Part shown: piece by piece, positions 1,422 through 59,370 of the stretch | Position numbering within the stretch: the first letter of the stretch is position 1 | Layout of the letters: every line of letters starts with the position of its first letter | From: Platycnemis pennipes | Taxonomy: Eukaryota > Arthropoda > Insecta > Odonata > Platycnemididae | Assembly (NCBI GenBank): GCA_933228895.1 | Contig: OW121847.1 | Location: 84,609,656 to 84,673,655, forward strand | Direction: 5' to 3' | Length of the DNA stretch: 64,000 nucleotides | The notes under the pieces: generated by a model | Told to the model about the DNA's origin: nothing | Databases searched by the model: none | Seen by the model: only the letters and a program-made list of their open reading frames with translations | Program-made: the position numbers and the translations under genes

Positions 1422-4400
1422 GTCAGTACCTGAAATCATTTTTTATACATGTATATATAAATATTTTTTTGTTTCCATTTATCACTATTTTGATTTTTTT
1501 AAATTTATTTTGCTTGGAACATTCATTATTACATAAATGATATTAAAATAAAATACCATTTTTGCCCTCTCAGTTTGTTGAATTCTTTGTGGAAAGAGGA
1601 GTCCTGGGAGTTGGTAAAGAGTTGGAAAGACTGTCTCTGGAATATCGAGGTGAACCTGTTGTTCCAGGGACTCGTGCAGTATGGGACTCAGCCCCACATC
1701 TTGTAGTACCTACAATGCCTCCAACTCTTCTTGGAGTTTGCCGCCTTATGCAAATTTATTATGTGTTGAAGGTATATGTATATTCATATTTAATTATGAT
1801 TGGTGGTGCAATATCAGTTAAATTCCCACGTTTTATTTCACTGGAATCTCTTGCAGGTTAACTTAGAATTTGAGAAGTCCGGAGAAGACCTCCACATGCA
1901 TTTTCCTGTAACGATTGCAACAGTTCCATTTCGAATCCCAAATTCAAAACAACAGCCTATTATAACATATGGTGAGTGTATTTATGTATTTTTCCTTGAT
2001 ATGATATTTGTTTCAATTCTTATTACATCATTCCTCGTGTTCCAAGATCGGCCTTGATCAAAAGTCTTTACAGAATTATTTGTTTTAAGTATGACACTTC
2101 AAAATATACTAGTCAAACTGGAGGTAGTAGTCCCTTTTGAGATTATTTTTAGCTATAATAATCAGGTTGTCTGAATATGTGGAAATTAGAGATGTACGAA
2201 TACTACCCACAAATACTCAAATACCTCGAAATGATACCTGGGAATGATAGAAAGTATTTGAAATTTTGAATAATTATGCTAAAAGGAAAAGCTCAAATAC
2301 CTCAAATATCACGCAATACAGCGCTATATTTCGCTTGTTGATGAGTTGCATCATATAAGCCATGAGAGAACAGGGGAGATATGTCTTGGGGACCGGGTTG
2401 GTGTAGTGGTAAGAGTACTGACTTCTCACCAGAAGGGGCCGGGTTTGAATCTCAGCAGTGTAAGATATTTTTCATTGTTGAACCCCTACTTGAGTGTTTT
2501 GTGGAGAGCATTCAAGCACACTACTCCATCCATTAGATGGAATGTTAAGCTGTGACTCTGTGGTATTCTTGGCCCCTTTTCGCAGGCTAATACTAAAGGG
2601 TTTCTCTCCACCCTTCCTCCTTTCCCTTCCATTCCTATCCTTGTGCCTTTCTTCCCAATCTGAAGCACCTGTTAGTGTGAAAACTGACTTGAAAACACAG
2701 ATCATGATGATGGTTTCACGGTGTAGTATGTTATAAAGAAAACAGTTTCAACAATAGAATTCCGGCAAACCTGTTGTCCTTTCACCATTAATTACATGCC
2801 AAAACTTCCCAAGTAGCAAAATCTTATGAAAAAAAAAATATTTTAAAATATATTGTAAGAATATTTTGAAATCATTTAAAAATTATTTTGAAAACATATT
2901 AGCTCTTTCTTTTTAGGCTTTTAAAATTATTTTTTCATTATTTCAAAGTGATTTTAACATAAGTTTCAAATATGTCTAACTCTTGAAGAAGCTACCCAGC
3001 TAGCACAAGGGGATATATATCCCATCCATTTCATAATACTATCCAAGTATTCGAGGGATATCATATCCGGCAAGGGAAAAGATATCCGGATATGAAGGGG
3101 AAAACCAACGGAAAAATATGGGATGAGTTTCCGCCTTTGAAGGGATATGGTTTCCGTAGTATGGTATAAGCGCGGGCAAGGGCCTAGCCACGTTGATACA
3201 CCGGTTCCCATCGGATCACCGAAGTTAAGCAACGTTGGGCCCGGACGGAGGTTGGATGGGTAACCCTCCTCCATACCTCTACCGTGGTGTTCTTGTCCAC
3301 TGTCTGCGAGTGGCGGGCAGGTTAAATGTGGGTTGGCACAATGGATCTAAAGAGGTCTAAGTGCCAGGGGGGCTCCAGAAGGCCTCCGCCCACCCCTCCA
3401 ATTTACATTTTTATGGTATAAGCGCCGCCTAGCGGTGAAAACCAGAACAACAAATGATCGACGAAAACGATATATATCATATATATCGATTATATTCCCG
3501 GAGCAATTGTATCGAACACCTATCGACTGTGATATCGCACTAGTAATATTCGATATACGGCTTCTCCTCGATATATTTGATGCAGACAAAACTCTTAAAT
3601 TCCTACTAAAACCCGCATTACCAAAATATATCAAATAAGTAACAACTCATTTAAGAAATATTACAGCGAAAACAACCACCCACCAAAGGAATACCAATTG
3701 AACTACAATTTTGATGAGCATATCGAGAAGTCCCTGTAATAATATAAAGGTGCACCAAGCCCTGGAAAAAACAGAGTGGATAATAACAAGGAGATATAGG
3801 TGAAAACATTTATTCAAGAACTTGAGAAAGACATTTTTATAGGTAGTAGTTTATTTTCCTGGATTCTCCCCTCAACATCGCCAACCATAACAACTCTCCT
3901 AAACTCCGATTAGCTGTGATGAGGTAAAGCTGGGATGCATTGGTCTTCACTGCACCTTGGTAAATAAAAGAATCTTCAGTTACTTAACTGTTTAAAAATG
4001 AAGGATAGACACGTAATTTTCGAATATTAATTCACCATATTCTATTGAAAACAAACCACCCATTTCTGGAACTCTAAATAAACCACAATTTTCCAAATAA
4101 AAACACTACAAAAATAAATTTAATGCTATGTCTAAGGTGAAAGGAACTTTTAAAAAACGAATCGCCCACTAAATTAATAGGATAACCATAATGCCATTAC
4201 ATTAGCTTATCGTTGCCTTCCAATTACTTATTCTAAATGTTTACGCCCTAATAACTGACTTTTGTGCAATATTTTGATAGTAAAAGTGAAATATTGTCGG
4301 GAAAAATTTTTCACAAAATGAAAAGTCAATGAAACATCAACAGACAACGGTTAAAAATTAACAGCTAATTGATATACACAGCAAAACTGTTATCTTCTTA

Positions 4401-7400
4401 TTTAGGTGAATGAATCCCTTACATGTATAACCACCGTCGTGTGTATGTATTTATCCGATGTCACTCACTACTCATAAGAAATGTATTAGGCACGACCATT
4501 AATGATCACCGATAACGCCATAAATGTTCATTCCCCAAAGCACCAGTTAACAAATCATAACGATTACCCAATTGTATGCCACATATGATAATATTATCCA
4601 GAATACATGGGGCTGAACATGAGTTGCCAAACAGAAAACTGTGTCAATAATATCATTTCGCACCTAAGTTAATTCAAGCCACGTCGTAATATTAAAGATT
4701 ATTGCCTTTAAATTAACAATTGTTTTCCATTTTGTAATAATATGGTCAAAAAGATAGGTACTAGTACAAAATAGCGATACACCGGCAGATACAAAAATTA
4801 AATGACAATTACTAAAAATTTTAAAAAAGCAAAATGAATGTTACCTTACCTTATTGTCTCGTACAAGAAGCTGGTTGCGATGTATATTCGTTGAACTAGG
4901 TTGTTGGATTCTTCTCGGCATCTGAATATTTACCATTGCAGCAGGAATAATGAAATGAGCAAAGCAAGGAAGCGAGCGCAGATTTATTACCAAAGTAAGA
5001 CGGGCTCCAAAGATGGCGATTTTCACATGGCGAAAGAGTTTCATTTTTTCGCATGTTTTTCCGGAATTGGCCGAGAGAGCGAGCTAAATTTCGCCAAATG
5101 TCTGCTACCGTGTAGCTCAAGCCCGCATTAGATGTAATACACCAGAAAGAATTTAGTCCTTCCTGAGAGTAATCTCTCGCTAAATAATTAACAGTGTAAT
5201 TTAATCAATTGATTAAATTACAATATTAATATTTAACTACTTCTATTCTTCCGAGTGGATCCATTATTATGATCACGGATAAGTCGCTGACATGTTTTCT
5301 CCGTGATATCCGTCCCTGAAATCCGAAGAGCACCTTTTCCGTTATATATCCCCTTCATATCTGGGAAACGATATCCCCTGTGCTAGCTGGGTATGAATTA
5401 TTATTTTAAAATTGTTTTAAAATATGTTGCAAATATTTCTGCCTCCTGTTAAAATGATAAATCATTATGTTAAATTTATTTAGACATGTTTCGACTAACG
5501 ATGCATTAGTAAACATTACTAAATGGGTGTCACACTTGGAATTCAATATGAATATCATCTCATAATAACAAAGAGCATATCAAAATGCCTGAAAGTGAGC
5601 ATTTAACAGGCTTTAAGTACACGAGAAACTAAAAACTGCCATTACTTGCATTTTAAAGTCTTTATAAGTTAAAAATTGTGCTTGAGCGGCATGAGTGATA
5701 CAATTGATCACTAAGGCATATTTGAGACTTTCAGAGGAATAATTCAGAGAATTGAAACATTCATATAAAATATTTAAGACTAAAATCTGTTGATTGTATT
5801 TATGGGTAAACCAGACTAAAATAATTCAATCTACAAGAAATTTTTTTGACAAAAATTATTTTTAATTCAGCTTGCTCTGAGTGTGGGCAAACCAGACAGA
5901 AATACATATTTCTATTTTTCTGTGGATATTAGGAACCATTCCCCTCCACCTCTTCTTAACTGCACCTGGAAGGAACCCGAACAGGCCATGAACAAATAAA
6001 TTACTACATTTCAAACACATTTGTGAGTAAATGGAGTAATTCAGTCTGAAAAATCCATGAATGTGGATCTAAAAATAATTTTGCAGAGTATCTTTTAGCA
6101 GAAAGTAGTTATTTTTTACTTACTCATCACTGCTGAGCAGATGGCCAAATCATAAACGCCCAGTTTTGTAGTGGTATAATCCTTCTGCCTTTGTCCCTTC
6201 CATGGTCATGAGTCTTGCTCCTCCTCATCACGTTTCAAAATATGTAACTATCCACATGGTTCCTGAAGAACCTAGAAGAAGTTAAGACTGACAGTTTAAA
6301 TTGTGCACATATAGGTTATGCATAGAAGTATTGAGAACAAACTAGAGAAAACCATTCAGATTATTTTGCAGGGTAGGTATATATTTCAGTGTGCTGAAAG
6401 GGCATGATTTGTTTTTACATTCGTATCCATCATGTGTTCCCTTTCAGGGTAGGCACAGTCAAAACAGCTCAATTTACAGCCTTGTACCTAGAGAACTGGC
6501 TTTGATTACTATTTCTTCCACACTGCCCTATCCTTACAAACTTCTTTTGCATCTGCCATTCATGAATTGCTTCATACACACTCTCCTATCACAAATACTC
6601 CTAATATTGCTAATCATAAGCGCCTCTTCAACCATATTCACTTATGATTTTCTATGTCCTCCCCTTCCTCTTATGCCATTCACCTCACTATCATAAATCT
6701 GTGTAGTTATTTGATTCGCATCCATTCCCTCATTATGGACAAATCTATGAATCCTGCTCTTTTTATACATGTACACCCATTACTGAAACATCCACTTTAC
6801 ATTATTTCATTACAGACTCATTCCTAACTCTATCCAACCTATGCAAACACTTCTCAGATAACTCATACCCACGACATGATTTTTGCTTCCTTAGACAAAC
6901 ACACATCCTACTCCAGTGGTAGGTAGCGTGATCCTTTGGTGCTATCTATCCTTCCACCTTTTGTAAAAATATTGCCCATGTACACAAAATCCTCAACTCA
7001 ACTGAACAGCCACTGTGACATAACGCAGCCTTGCTTTACACCCTGTTTTACTTCAAACCAGTCCCTTGAGATCCAATTAACTCTCACGCTTGCCTTGCTA
7101 TTGAAATACATTGCCTTTCTATATTCAATAACAAATCTCATCATACACCACAAAATCAATCACACCCTTATCAAGGTAAACTTATGAATTCTCTTTTGCT
7201 TAAACCATGTACCTATTCCCAAACAACCTATCTTTTTTCCTAGCGCACAGCCATCAACTTTTCTCCAATAACATTGACGCAAGGGTCACCAAATGGCACA
7301 ACCACTCTCTCAGATGCCTCCTGCCTCACACCAACCCAGCCATTCATGTCACCTAGTACAATAATTCTCTCACCAGGGTTTTATCCACCATCACTATATT

Positions 7401-43264: not shown

Positions 43265-43612
43265 GGTTGGTTGGTTATTCAGGGGAGGCGACCGACAGCT
43301 GAGGTCATTTGCGCCATTTTAGGATAGGTGAGTAAATGGCTAATGGTATGAGTTTTCAGGGAACGGAGGAAGGGTGGAGAGAAACCAGGCGTCGGCGTTA
43401 GCCTACTATTAACGAAAGGCGCCAAGGGGACCACGGCTTAACGTCCCATCCGGAGTACTGAACGGACCTAGGAGTACTGAACTTGAAATGCCCTCCACTA
43501 GGCACTCAAGTGGGGACCGGTTTTCCACTGAAAAATCTTCCACTGTCGGGAATCGAACCCGGGCCCTCGGGATGGGAGGCCAGTACTCTAGCCACCACAC
43601 CAATCCGATCCC
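43265..43612 (-). mobile_element. SINE-1, full-length, on - with 13-bp duplication
   Basis: Read on -, it starts GGGATCGGATTGGTGTGGTG with a box A (TGGTGTGGTGGCTAGAG) and a box B (GGGTTCGATTCCCG). A body of about 260 bp follows and ends in an AACC-rich tail. Flanking direct repeats TAATAGTATTATT (43,252-43,264) and TAATAGTCTTATT (43,613-43,625) are a 13-bp target duplication with one mismatch. It closely matches the copy at 51,746. Confidence 0.9.
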
Positions 43613-51745: not shown

Positions 51746-52078
51746 GGGGATCGGGTTGGTGTGGTGGCTAGAGTACTGGCCTCCCATCCCGAGGGCCCGG
51801 GTTCCATTCCCGGCAGTGGCGGATTTTTCAGTGGAAAACCGGTCCCCACTTGAGTGCCTAGTGGAGGGCATTTCAAGTACAGTACTCCGTCCGTCGGATG
51901 GGACGTTAAGCCGTGGTCCCCTTGGCGCCTTTCGTTAAGAGTAGGCTAATGCCGACGCCGGGTTTCTCTCCACCCTTCCTCCGTTCCCTAAAAACTCCTA
52001 CCATTACCCAATTACCCACCTGTCCTATATGGCGCAAATGACCTCAGCTGTCGGTCGCCTCCCCCAAATAACCAACAA
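51746..52078 (+). mobile_element. SINE-1, full-length, with perfect 13-bp duplication
   Basis: A perfect direct repeat ACTCCCGTTTGCC flanks it (51,733-51,745 and 52,079-52,091). The head is GGGATCGGGTTGGTGTGGTG with a box A, and a box B-like GGGTTCCATTCCCGG follows about 45 bp later. The body shares long near-identical blocks with 43,265-43,612, and the tail is CCCAAATAACCAACAA. It is the best reference copy of the family and looks recently inserted. Confidence 0.92.
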
Positions 52079-57442: not shown

Positions 57443-59370
57443 TATATCTATATCTACGACATACCCTGCAAGCCACCTCGAGGGTGTGTGGCAGGGGGTG
57501 CATCCACACCAAGAATAATGACACAACAAACAAAAATGAACAACACAAAACAAGCACCTCACCTTTAAAAGTAATTAGGGGAAAAAAACTACCAAATCCC
57601 AATCATGCAGGGCACACCCAGGAATACCATGCATGACTTGAAACCCTGCACCAATTTCATAGATACTCATGCATGCAAAAAAAGCAATGCATGCGAGTCA
57701 CACCTCGATTTGAACATTTAGGAAATAAAAAAATACTATCGACGTACTCTGAATATGACCTTATAATTATTACCGTTTTGCGCGATGTCTAACGTTCTTA
57801 TCTCGAATCGTACGTGGAAAAAATGATATTTTAAACCTGTCCGTTCTGCAATCTATCTCCTTAATTTTATTAGAATTATCGAGCCTACCATAATACGTCG
57901 GAGCCAGCAATATATGGTTAACGTCATTAATGAACTGTCCCTCACTAAATTTTCCCAAAATGTTAAGTCTATAATTCAGCCCACGTTGTAACAGCGATTC
58001 CCATCCCAAATCGGCTAACATACCAGACACACTTATTTCCCCATCGTAACACCCTTTTACATATCTCGCTGCTCTTCTTTGTACTCGATCTAATTCGTAA
58101 ATTAAGCCTGCTTCATAAGGGTCCCATATACTCGCAGCATATTCTAAGTGTAGTCTAGCAATTGAAAAATAGCAACGTTCCTTCACCTCTCCTCACTTTT
58201 CCCTAATATTCTTTTAATAAACCCCAACTTTCTATTTGCTTGACTGCATATTTCCCTGATATGTTTCCCCCATGATAGATCCTGAGTAAGTGTTACTCCT
58301 AAGTACTTAACTGATTCTACGTTTACTAATTCCGTACCTTGAATCATATGGATTCTTTCTAACGAGTTTTTCCTTTTCCAAAAATTTACTGTCACGCACT
58401 TTTTTATGTTCAGTTCTAGTTTCCATGTATCATACCACGCCTGAATTGCTACGAGATCCTTTTCTAACGATGCCTTGTCTCCCGGACTACTAATTTCTCT
58501 ATACACTACTGCATTATCTATCTACATCTACATAATACCCTGCAAGCCACCACAAGGGTGCGTGGCAGGGGGTGATTGCTCACCAAACATGCACTACATA
58601 TCATGCATAAAAAAGGAATAGTATTAATATAGTAGTCAGAACTACACTATTTAAAAAAGATAGAAATTGCAAATAAAACATGCAAAAACATTCTGTTAGT
58701 AGGGTTAGCTTTAAGTACTCATACCAACATGCAGCTACCAATGCTATTCATTGCTACTCTCCGATAGGACATATTTACCGTTATTCGTATCTCTTATTGT
58801 GCGTGGGAAAAAGGACATTTTGAATCGGTCAGTTCGGCAATCAATTTCTCTAACTTTATGATTATGGTCCAGTCTGCCATAGTAAGTTGGGGTTCGTAAA
58901 ATATTTTTAACATCATCACTGAAAATATTGCCTTGGAATTTGTGTAAGAGATTAAGTCTAAATTTCAACCTGCGATCTGACAATGATTCCCATTTCAATT
59001 CATTTAATAGACTGGTTACGCTAATATAATTATCGTATCGTCCCTTTACAAATCTTGCCGATCTTCGCTGCACACGTTCAAGTTCATTACTTAGACCGAT
59101 TTCGTAGGGATCCCATACACTGGCAGCATATTCCAAATGAGGTCTAACAAGGGAAAAGTAGCTGAGAATTATCTGCGAAAAGCCGAATTCTACTGTTTAC
59201 TACAACACTGCCGAGGTCATTGATATATAAAAGAAATAAAAGTGGGCCTATCACACTGCCCTGGGGAACACCTGATGTGACACTAACTATATTGGCCATG
59301 GTACCGTCTATAGTAACTCTCTGTTCGCGGCCAACTAAGAATTGACTAATCCAGCATACTACATGTTTAT
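57443..59370 (-). pseudogene. CR1/L2-like LINE, subfamily II, split by a younger LINE
   Basis: On - the order is an RT core at 59,370-59,175, then, after a nested insertion (58,520-59,167), the C-terminal part at 58,519-57,770 and a 3' UTR ending at about 57,443. The RT core reads QFLVGREQRVTIDG, VTSGVPQGSVIGPLLFLLYI, NDL and RLFADN. The catalytic FADD motif is FADN. The next part starts AVVYREISSPGDKASLEKDL and WKLELNIKKC, KYLGVTLTQDLSW, then (one frame later) LEYAASIWDPYEAGLIYEL to FFPRTIRD. The frame changes near 58,185. Upstream RT palm and endonuclease are missing. Confidence 0.85.
58520..59167 (-). mobile_element. CR1/L2-like LINE, subfamily III, nested, with 7-bp duplication
   Basis: A 5'-truncated copy inserted into the subfamily II LINE. 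ATTATCT is repeated at 58,513-58,519 and 59,168-59,174. The 3' terminus starts at 58,520 (CTACATCTACATAATACCC). The reading frame, 59,158-58,744, covers YFSLVRPHLEYAASVWDPYE, QRRSARFVKGRYDNYISVTS, RLKFRLNLLHKFQGN, YYGRLDHNHKVREIDCRTDR and FFPRTIRDTN, and is intact to its stop. Fresh duplication and an open frame mark it as the youngest LINE here. Confidence 0.9.

Follow-up and report, generated by a model that had tools for sequence, protein, structure and literature searches.

The stretch of DNA analysed here (64,000 nucleotides of chromosome 1 of the damselfly Platycnemis pennipes, hereafter the window) carries on its plus strand, at positions 3174-3411, an intact 238-bp SINE that is composed of a 5S rRNA-derived head, a body predicted to form hairpins and a T-rich tail, and is bracketed by a target-site duplication (Table 1). 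A sequence-only reading of the same DNA had placed a 13-bp duplication from position 3161; the duplication is real, and the exact repeat is 14 bp long, its first T having been missed. The same reading had described a 5S segment joined to about 135 bp of unrelated body. Both parts are present, but the head is a complete 5S unit and, since the 5S match spans 3175-3298, the foreign body measures ~113 bp. As had also been proposed, the SINE is inserted into a DNA transposon, termed B: it lies between the terminal inverted repeats of B, which agree at 18 of 19 nt, and this position supports a SINE insertion later than the transposon. The ends of transposon B (window 2993-5393) are TACCCAGCTAGCACA, and B would be of the TA-inserting type provided that the outer TA represents the duplicated target.

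Table 1. Features of the SINE copy and of its host transposon (window positions).
Feature	Position	Strand	Details
Left terminal inverted repeat, host DNA transposon B	2993..3011	+	19 nt
Left target-site duplication TATGGTATAAGCGC	3160..3173	+	14 bp, exact direct repeat
5S rRNA-derived head, complete 5S-like unit	3174..3298	+	element nt 1-125; Rfam RF00001, predicted fold
Helix I 5' arm GGGCAAGGGC	3174..3183	+	10/10 pairs with 3289-3298, G-U included
GAAGTTAAGCAACGT, A-box-like	3221..3235	+	14/15 identical to own 5S genes L046-L048
GGGCCCGG, intermediate element	3237..3244	+	identical in own 5S genes L046-L048
GTTGGATGGGTAACC, C-box-like	3251..3265	+	core TTGGATGGGT identical in own 5S genes L046-L048
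Helix I 3' arm GTTCTTGTCC	3289..3298	+	pairs with 3174-3183
Body hairpin 1	3299..3321	+	element nt 126-148; fold of consensus
Forked 3' hairpin of body	3328..3393	+	element nt 155-220; 3331-3376 similar to LINE 3' untranslated region
Tail TTTACATTTT, presumed Pol III terminator	3402..3411	+	TTTT absent inside 231-nt consensus
Right target-site duplication TATGGTATAAGCGC	3412..3425	+	14 bp
Right terminal inverted repeat, host DNA transposon B	5375..5393	-	19 nt

No second copy of the SINE was found within the window; a possible fragment at 57981-58005 was set aside as not significant (E 0.04). A different repeat is present at 2388-2627 and 51746-51989 (71% alike), with related stretches near 43266, 46935 and 52080. 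Its start resembles by eye a tRNA-derived SINE; ARAGORN called no tRNA in the window.

The head matches RF00001 over the entire model (positions 1-120 of 120) with 59.2 bits, the gathering score being 38, and an E-value of 7e-10, and nothing else in the window reaches an Rfam gathering score. Three of its stretches are shared with the genome's own 5S genes (Table 1), and we take them to be the A-box-like part of the 5S internal promoter (GAAGTTAAGCAACGT), the intermediate element (GGGCCCGG) and a C-box-like stretch (GTTGGATGGGTAACC). An alignment of the head with three of these genes, a comparison that the sequence-only reading had recommended, gave 83-86% identity over 83-94 nt. The exact head stretch CCATACCTCTACCGTGGTGTT had 0 matches in viral and prokaryote contig collections, which is little informative for an insect SINE, and an exact scan of viral contigs for the 3' hairpin pattern also gave 0 matches.

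Downstream of the head, the first base of body hairpin 1 is A in the window copy and C in the consensus. The tail ends in ACATTTT and differs in length among copies, variants having extra T after ACATTTT or repeats such as ACATTTTACATTTT. The 231-nt consensus before the tail contains no TTTT, whereas the own 5S genes L046 and L048 do have one, and the SINE does not show the arrangement of a 5S rRNA gene, in which a complete 5S is followed by a T-run terminator. As no TTTT occurs upstream of the tail, an RNA polymerase III transcript is expected to extend to it.

A whole-genome search (1,793,331,434 bases in 88 contigs) returned 3603 first-look candidates, which are not to be equated with copies, and 40 were scored. 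All 40, including the window copy, are near full-length, 96-100% identical and spread over 10 contigs; one additional match was partial (83%). The exact 19-nt junction of head and body occurs 426 times in the genome (222 + 204) and the reversed control pattern 0 times; the window copy is outside this count because it carries one mismatch in the pattern. The suggestion that the element belongs to a mobile 5S SINE family, rather than being a single-copy curiosity, is thus supported by the identical junctions, the many copies and their differing flanking duplications.

Copies were compared with the consensus in two sets. The first, selected for likeness to the query, comprises the window copy and 37 of the 39 other near copies (n=38; the remaining two lie on C1 at 162.51 Mb), which differ from the consensus at 0-10 of ~231 sites and are identical to it in six cases. 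The second, less biased set consists of 38 further junction sites on chromosome 1 (a 39th was already represented by L030), with 79-99.6% identity to the consensus and a median of 96.7%. Here, 28 copies begin within the first 3 nt of the head and ten are 5'-truncated, starting at nt 6, 7, 7, 26, 38, 50, 54, 91, 97 and 113, while the 3' end of the body is reached in 38 of 38. Seven of the truncated copies start at nt 26 or later, and four of these seven have duplications. Since this set was chosen by the junction, the frequency of head or body alone is not deducible from it. We conclude that the family is young and recently active.

Some copies appear in regular arrangements. Those at C1:162506835, 162512772 and 162518709 are spaced by exactly 5937 bp, and the two members of a further pair (L107 and L108, at C1:162644887 and 162680498), 35.6 kb apart, have the same duplication; we regard the 5937-bp-spaced copies and this pair as tandem arrays or segmental duplications carrying the SINE. 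Older copies are also present. One of them, L061, was found among the 5S matches and is 91% identical; another, partial one (L043:527-630, 83%) ends in ACATTTTTTTTT, apparently has no LINE-like fork and lies ~130 bp from a young copy in the opposite orientation.

Duplications of at least 10 bp that differ between sites flank 35 of the 38 near copies (29 exact, six with one mismatch). They range from 11 to 19 bp, lengths of 13 or 14 bp account for 26 of the 35, and the mode is 14; the three exceptions are L015 and L035, with none, and the SINE copy at L018, with 7 bp only. For the chromosome 1 set, duplications of at least 10 bp were seen at 32 of 38 sites, 21 of them exact and 11 with a single mismatch, over a range of 11-17 bp, and none at the other six. 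Two of the 32, at L107 and L108, are identical and resemble one duplicated segment. Of 36 scored duplications, 28 have T and eight have A as their first base, and 34 have A or T as their second; 15 start with TA and 12 with TT. Complete 3' ends, 5' truncations and duplications are the marks of insertion of the LINE type; 5' truncation combined with fixed 3' ends and A/T-rich entry points is the pattern left by target-primed reverse transcription by a LINE.

These data bear on two other identities for the element. Genuine fusions of 5S to other mobile DNA do occur in this genome, and the SINE could be imagined as a dispersed 5S pseudogene lying by chance beside an unrelated repeat; this is contradicted by a junction fixed in 426 occurrences, by the fixed 3' end and by duplications that bracket head and body together, and we consider it extremely improbable. 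A TRIM or LTR element with a 5S promoter deserves equally little credence, even though Ajax likewise has such a promoter within a short repetitive element (PMC10886601): the SINE duplications are mostly 13-14 bp (11-19 bp overall) and not 5 bp, 5'-truncated copies exist, and a single head per 9.8-kb stretch was detected in 20 of 20 long loci (L009-L028, E 1e-4), so that no LTR pair was seen. Ajax and Cassandra share the 5S internal promoter with the damselfly SINE but are LTR elements (PMC10886601, PMC10853983). The RNA of Cassandra is said to be similar in structure to 5S (PMC10853983); Ajax is described as having 5-bp duplications, the promoter part only, and an LTR that does not fold like 5S (PMC10886601).

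The element is instead a SINE3, that is, a 5S rRNA-derived SINE, of a known kind and a new family. It is short (238 bp), non-coding, interspersed and multi-copy (40 scored copies on 10 contigs; 426 junctions), and it combines a 5S-derived head containing the internal promoter with LINE-type duplications, 5' truncation and a 3' end shared with a LINE (37 of 46 nt and a like fork, the last ~20 nt and the tails being different). 5S SINEs have been described in fishes, some mammals, Lepidoptera and Tribolium (PMC3272025, PMC8010984) and in Aspergillus (PMC5063351). A literature search of titles and the starts of abstracts, which covered few subscription journals and did not include Repbase, found none in Odonata, and the host order is apparently new for 5S SINEs.

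Among the relatives, the SINEs named for zebrafish, fruit bats and springhare (PMC8010984) are 5S-headed like that of the damselfly; they belong to other hosts and are likened here by class alone. HaSE3 of Helicoverpa armigera resembles the damselfly SINE in having a 5S head with A, IE and C boxes and a 3' end that matches a resident LINE (PMC3272025). In contrast, the body and tail of HaSE3 also occur in the tRNA SINE HaSE1, whereas the damselfly SINE matched no other repeat in the window, and HaRTE1, the RTE-type partner of HaSE3, ends in TGA repeats, as opposed to the ACATTTT or T-rich tail of the damselfly SINE (PMC3272025). Duplications of 19 and 8 bp are given for two relatives, and none for HaSE3.1 in the part of the article consulted (PMC3272025). 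PxSE4 and PxSE5 of Plutella xylostella also have a 5S head, and PxSE5 has a LINE-related 3' end of 43 bp (84% identical), its partner LINE showing a 13-bp duplication (PMC8010984). They differ in length (389 versus 238 bp), in their (TGA)n or (ATGT)n tails, and in promoter regions ~63% identical to Bombyx 5S, compared with 83-86% to its own 5S over 83-94 nt for the damselfly head (PMC8010984). In the accessible text of both reports, the characterisation of HaSE3 and PxSE4/5 relies on promoter similarity and not on a 5S RNA fold (PMC3272025, PMC8010984).

A candidate for the helper LINE was identified at L018. The sequence-only reading had advised comparing the tail with LINE 3' ends, and the 3' part of the SINE indeed matches one: within nt 158-203, 37 of 46 positions agree with the 3' untranslated region of this LINE (E 1e-6 for the LINE by itself; 7e-6 in the pool of fetched sequences), and a fork made of an outer stem with two hairpins is predicted for both 3' ends. 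The LINE is ~5.8 kb long (read into the adjoining L111), is flanked by the 13-bp duplication TATGGTCAAACGA, which starts with TA, and gives Pfam matches to endonuclease, reverse transcriptase, RNase H and a zinc-binding reverse transcriptase domain, the last only at the cut-off score. This domain set presumably places it in the I/R1/LOA group. It was read end to end in this one copy, in which the frames are broken and the domains lie in separate frames. Two further 5'-truncated copies of its 3' end occur in L011 and L016; the former has the 12-nt sequence CTAATGACAAGG on either side, as judged by eye, and no clear duplication was seen for the latter.

The shared 3' hairpin region and the like duplications make the L018 LINE the probable helper of the SINE, as judged from sequence similarity. 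We think it unlikely, though worth keeping in view, that the SINE is moved by another LINE family. Such a reading would accommodate the different tails (CAACAATAATTC... in the LINE, CAATTTACATTTT in the SINE), the shortness of the common stretch, only 46 nt, and the further LINE-like frames in the window at 49.8, 57.8 and 58.7 kb; it is opposed by the significance of the common 3' fork and by the TA start of the LINE duplication, which is echoed by the 27 of 36 SINE duplications that start with T followed by A or T. Since the LINE copy at L018 has decayed and ends in a tail unlike that of the SINE, a sister family may be the true helper.

Energy minimisation folds the consensus head into the three-way junction of 5S, with a 10-bp helix I closing it. 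Compared with dinucleotide shuffles, the energy of this structure is lower by 2.2 standard deviations, and at least nine helix I pairs were formed by two of 500 shuffles. When the heads of the 38 near copies were sorted by the author, 20 folds were identical, 11 were close variants and seven departed more strongly; in the older copy L061, the fold differs on the 3' side of the head. The 10/10 pairing of the chromosome 1 copies is not independent evidence, because the 3' arm of helix I was fixed by the search pattern.

Whether this fold has been selected or merely inherited was approached in two ways. A hand alignment of helix I with the own 5S gene L046 contains six substitutions, yet 9 of 9 pairs are kept, G-U included, and two of the nine are changed on both sides; simulations that fixed the changes per arm reached such pairing in 0.03-0.6% of trials, the exact share varying with the transition bias. 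In a comparison of 77 copies, variants found in at least five copies were taken as changes of source copies: ten of the 15 fall at unpaired sites and one breaks a pair, versus 69 of 148 private single-copy changes (Fisher P 0.002). The contrast weakens at looser thresholds, with two of 20 pair-breaking for at least four copies and 13 of 44 for at least three. An account without selection, in which the fold is simply that of 5S genes and its paired helix I derives from a variant 5S gene, fits the presence of variant 5S copies in the genome, the 13 of 44 result and the seven near copies with a different predicted layout. We give it somewhat less than an even chance, given the retained helix I pairs, the 1 of 15 pair-breaking variants and the absence of the SINE's helix I from all 19 further 5S-type loci for which the 5' end was read (part of 47 scored matches). 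Selection maintaining the 5S fold of the head is therefore no more than likely, since variants common to several copies are partly dependent on one another and the pairs were taken from the consensus fold.

Selection of this kind may be linked to the partners of 5S rRNA, which include TFIIIA and ribosomal protein L5. The SINE RNA could act as a 5S mimic whose selected architecture, including the closing helix, would bind these partners, bring the RNA to ribosomes or the nucleolus and let it meet new LINE reverse transcriptase; we put this forward as a rather doubtful model. Mimicry of 5S would parallel the proposed exploitation of the SRP9/14 proteins by Alu.

The search of the genome for 5S sequences gave 47 scored matches among 56725 first-look candidates, and 21 were read (L046-L066). 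In four of the 21, examined in the longer reads L067, L068, L069 and L070 from chromosomes 8, 12, X and 1, sense 5S of varying 5' completeness is joined directly to frames of the LINE reverse-transcriptase type, through seven T in three cases and three T in one; the LINE part is of a sort also present in the window. The longest direct repeats around these fusions are 6-8 nt, and no duplication is therefore claimed for them. Other 5S matches have different surroundings. In L052 and L062, 5S is followed directly by a tRNA-like SINE containing CCGGCCCCGGTGGCGG, and L056, L057 and L058 contain 5S only to about nt 88, with the same cut point GGATGGGT near a TATA-like box. The truncated 5S is antisense in L056 and L057, which are 78% alike on one side, and sense in L058; the reverse strand of L057 resembles what we take, from a motif, to be a Penelope-type C-terminus. 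The three loci may represent further elements bearing 5S fragments. Fusion of 5S to a LINE is a plausible birth route for SINEs of the present kind. Template switching has been proposed for the origin of HaSE3 (PMC3272025), and 5S/LINE-1 chimeras have been described as typically antisense and truncated (PMC13174262), unlike the four damselfly fusions, which are in sense orientation.

We are highly confident in the overall account of a recently active SINE3-type 5S SINE of P. pennipes that is moved by LINE machinery. Transcription by RNA polymerase III would probably use the internal 5S promoter of the head and end at the T-run of the tail, which is the first TTTT of the consensus. The forked 3' hairpin of the RNA would then be recognised by the machinery of a resident LINE with endonuclease, reverse transcriptase and RNase H domains, as suggested by the 3' end common to both and by their similar insertion signatures. 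The enzyme would nick the target, and a primer usually ending in A would pair with the U-rich tail, if the presumed order of nicking is correct. Copying of the RNA would leave the duplications of 11-19 bp, mostly 13-14, that are observed along with the 5' truncations. The simplest reason for source copies to keep the complete 5S fold would be that it aids transcription, export, stability or capture of the RNA.

This analysis apparently extends 5S SINEs to damselflies, and it makes available, within a single chromosome-scale genome, a young family of hundreds of copies together with a candidate helper LINE. The 5S/LINE fusions of that genome exemplify a type of joining that could give rise to 5S SINEs. 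The 5S fold predicted for the damselfly SINE is unusual in its completeness and has probably been maintained, and the 5S-like folding of the SINE RNA may contribute to the spread of the element. Should the fold truly be under selection, 5S SINEs would join Alu as a second, independent test case for the proposal that, in SINEs, the structure of a parent RNA is kept in order to reach LINE enzymes on ribosomes.
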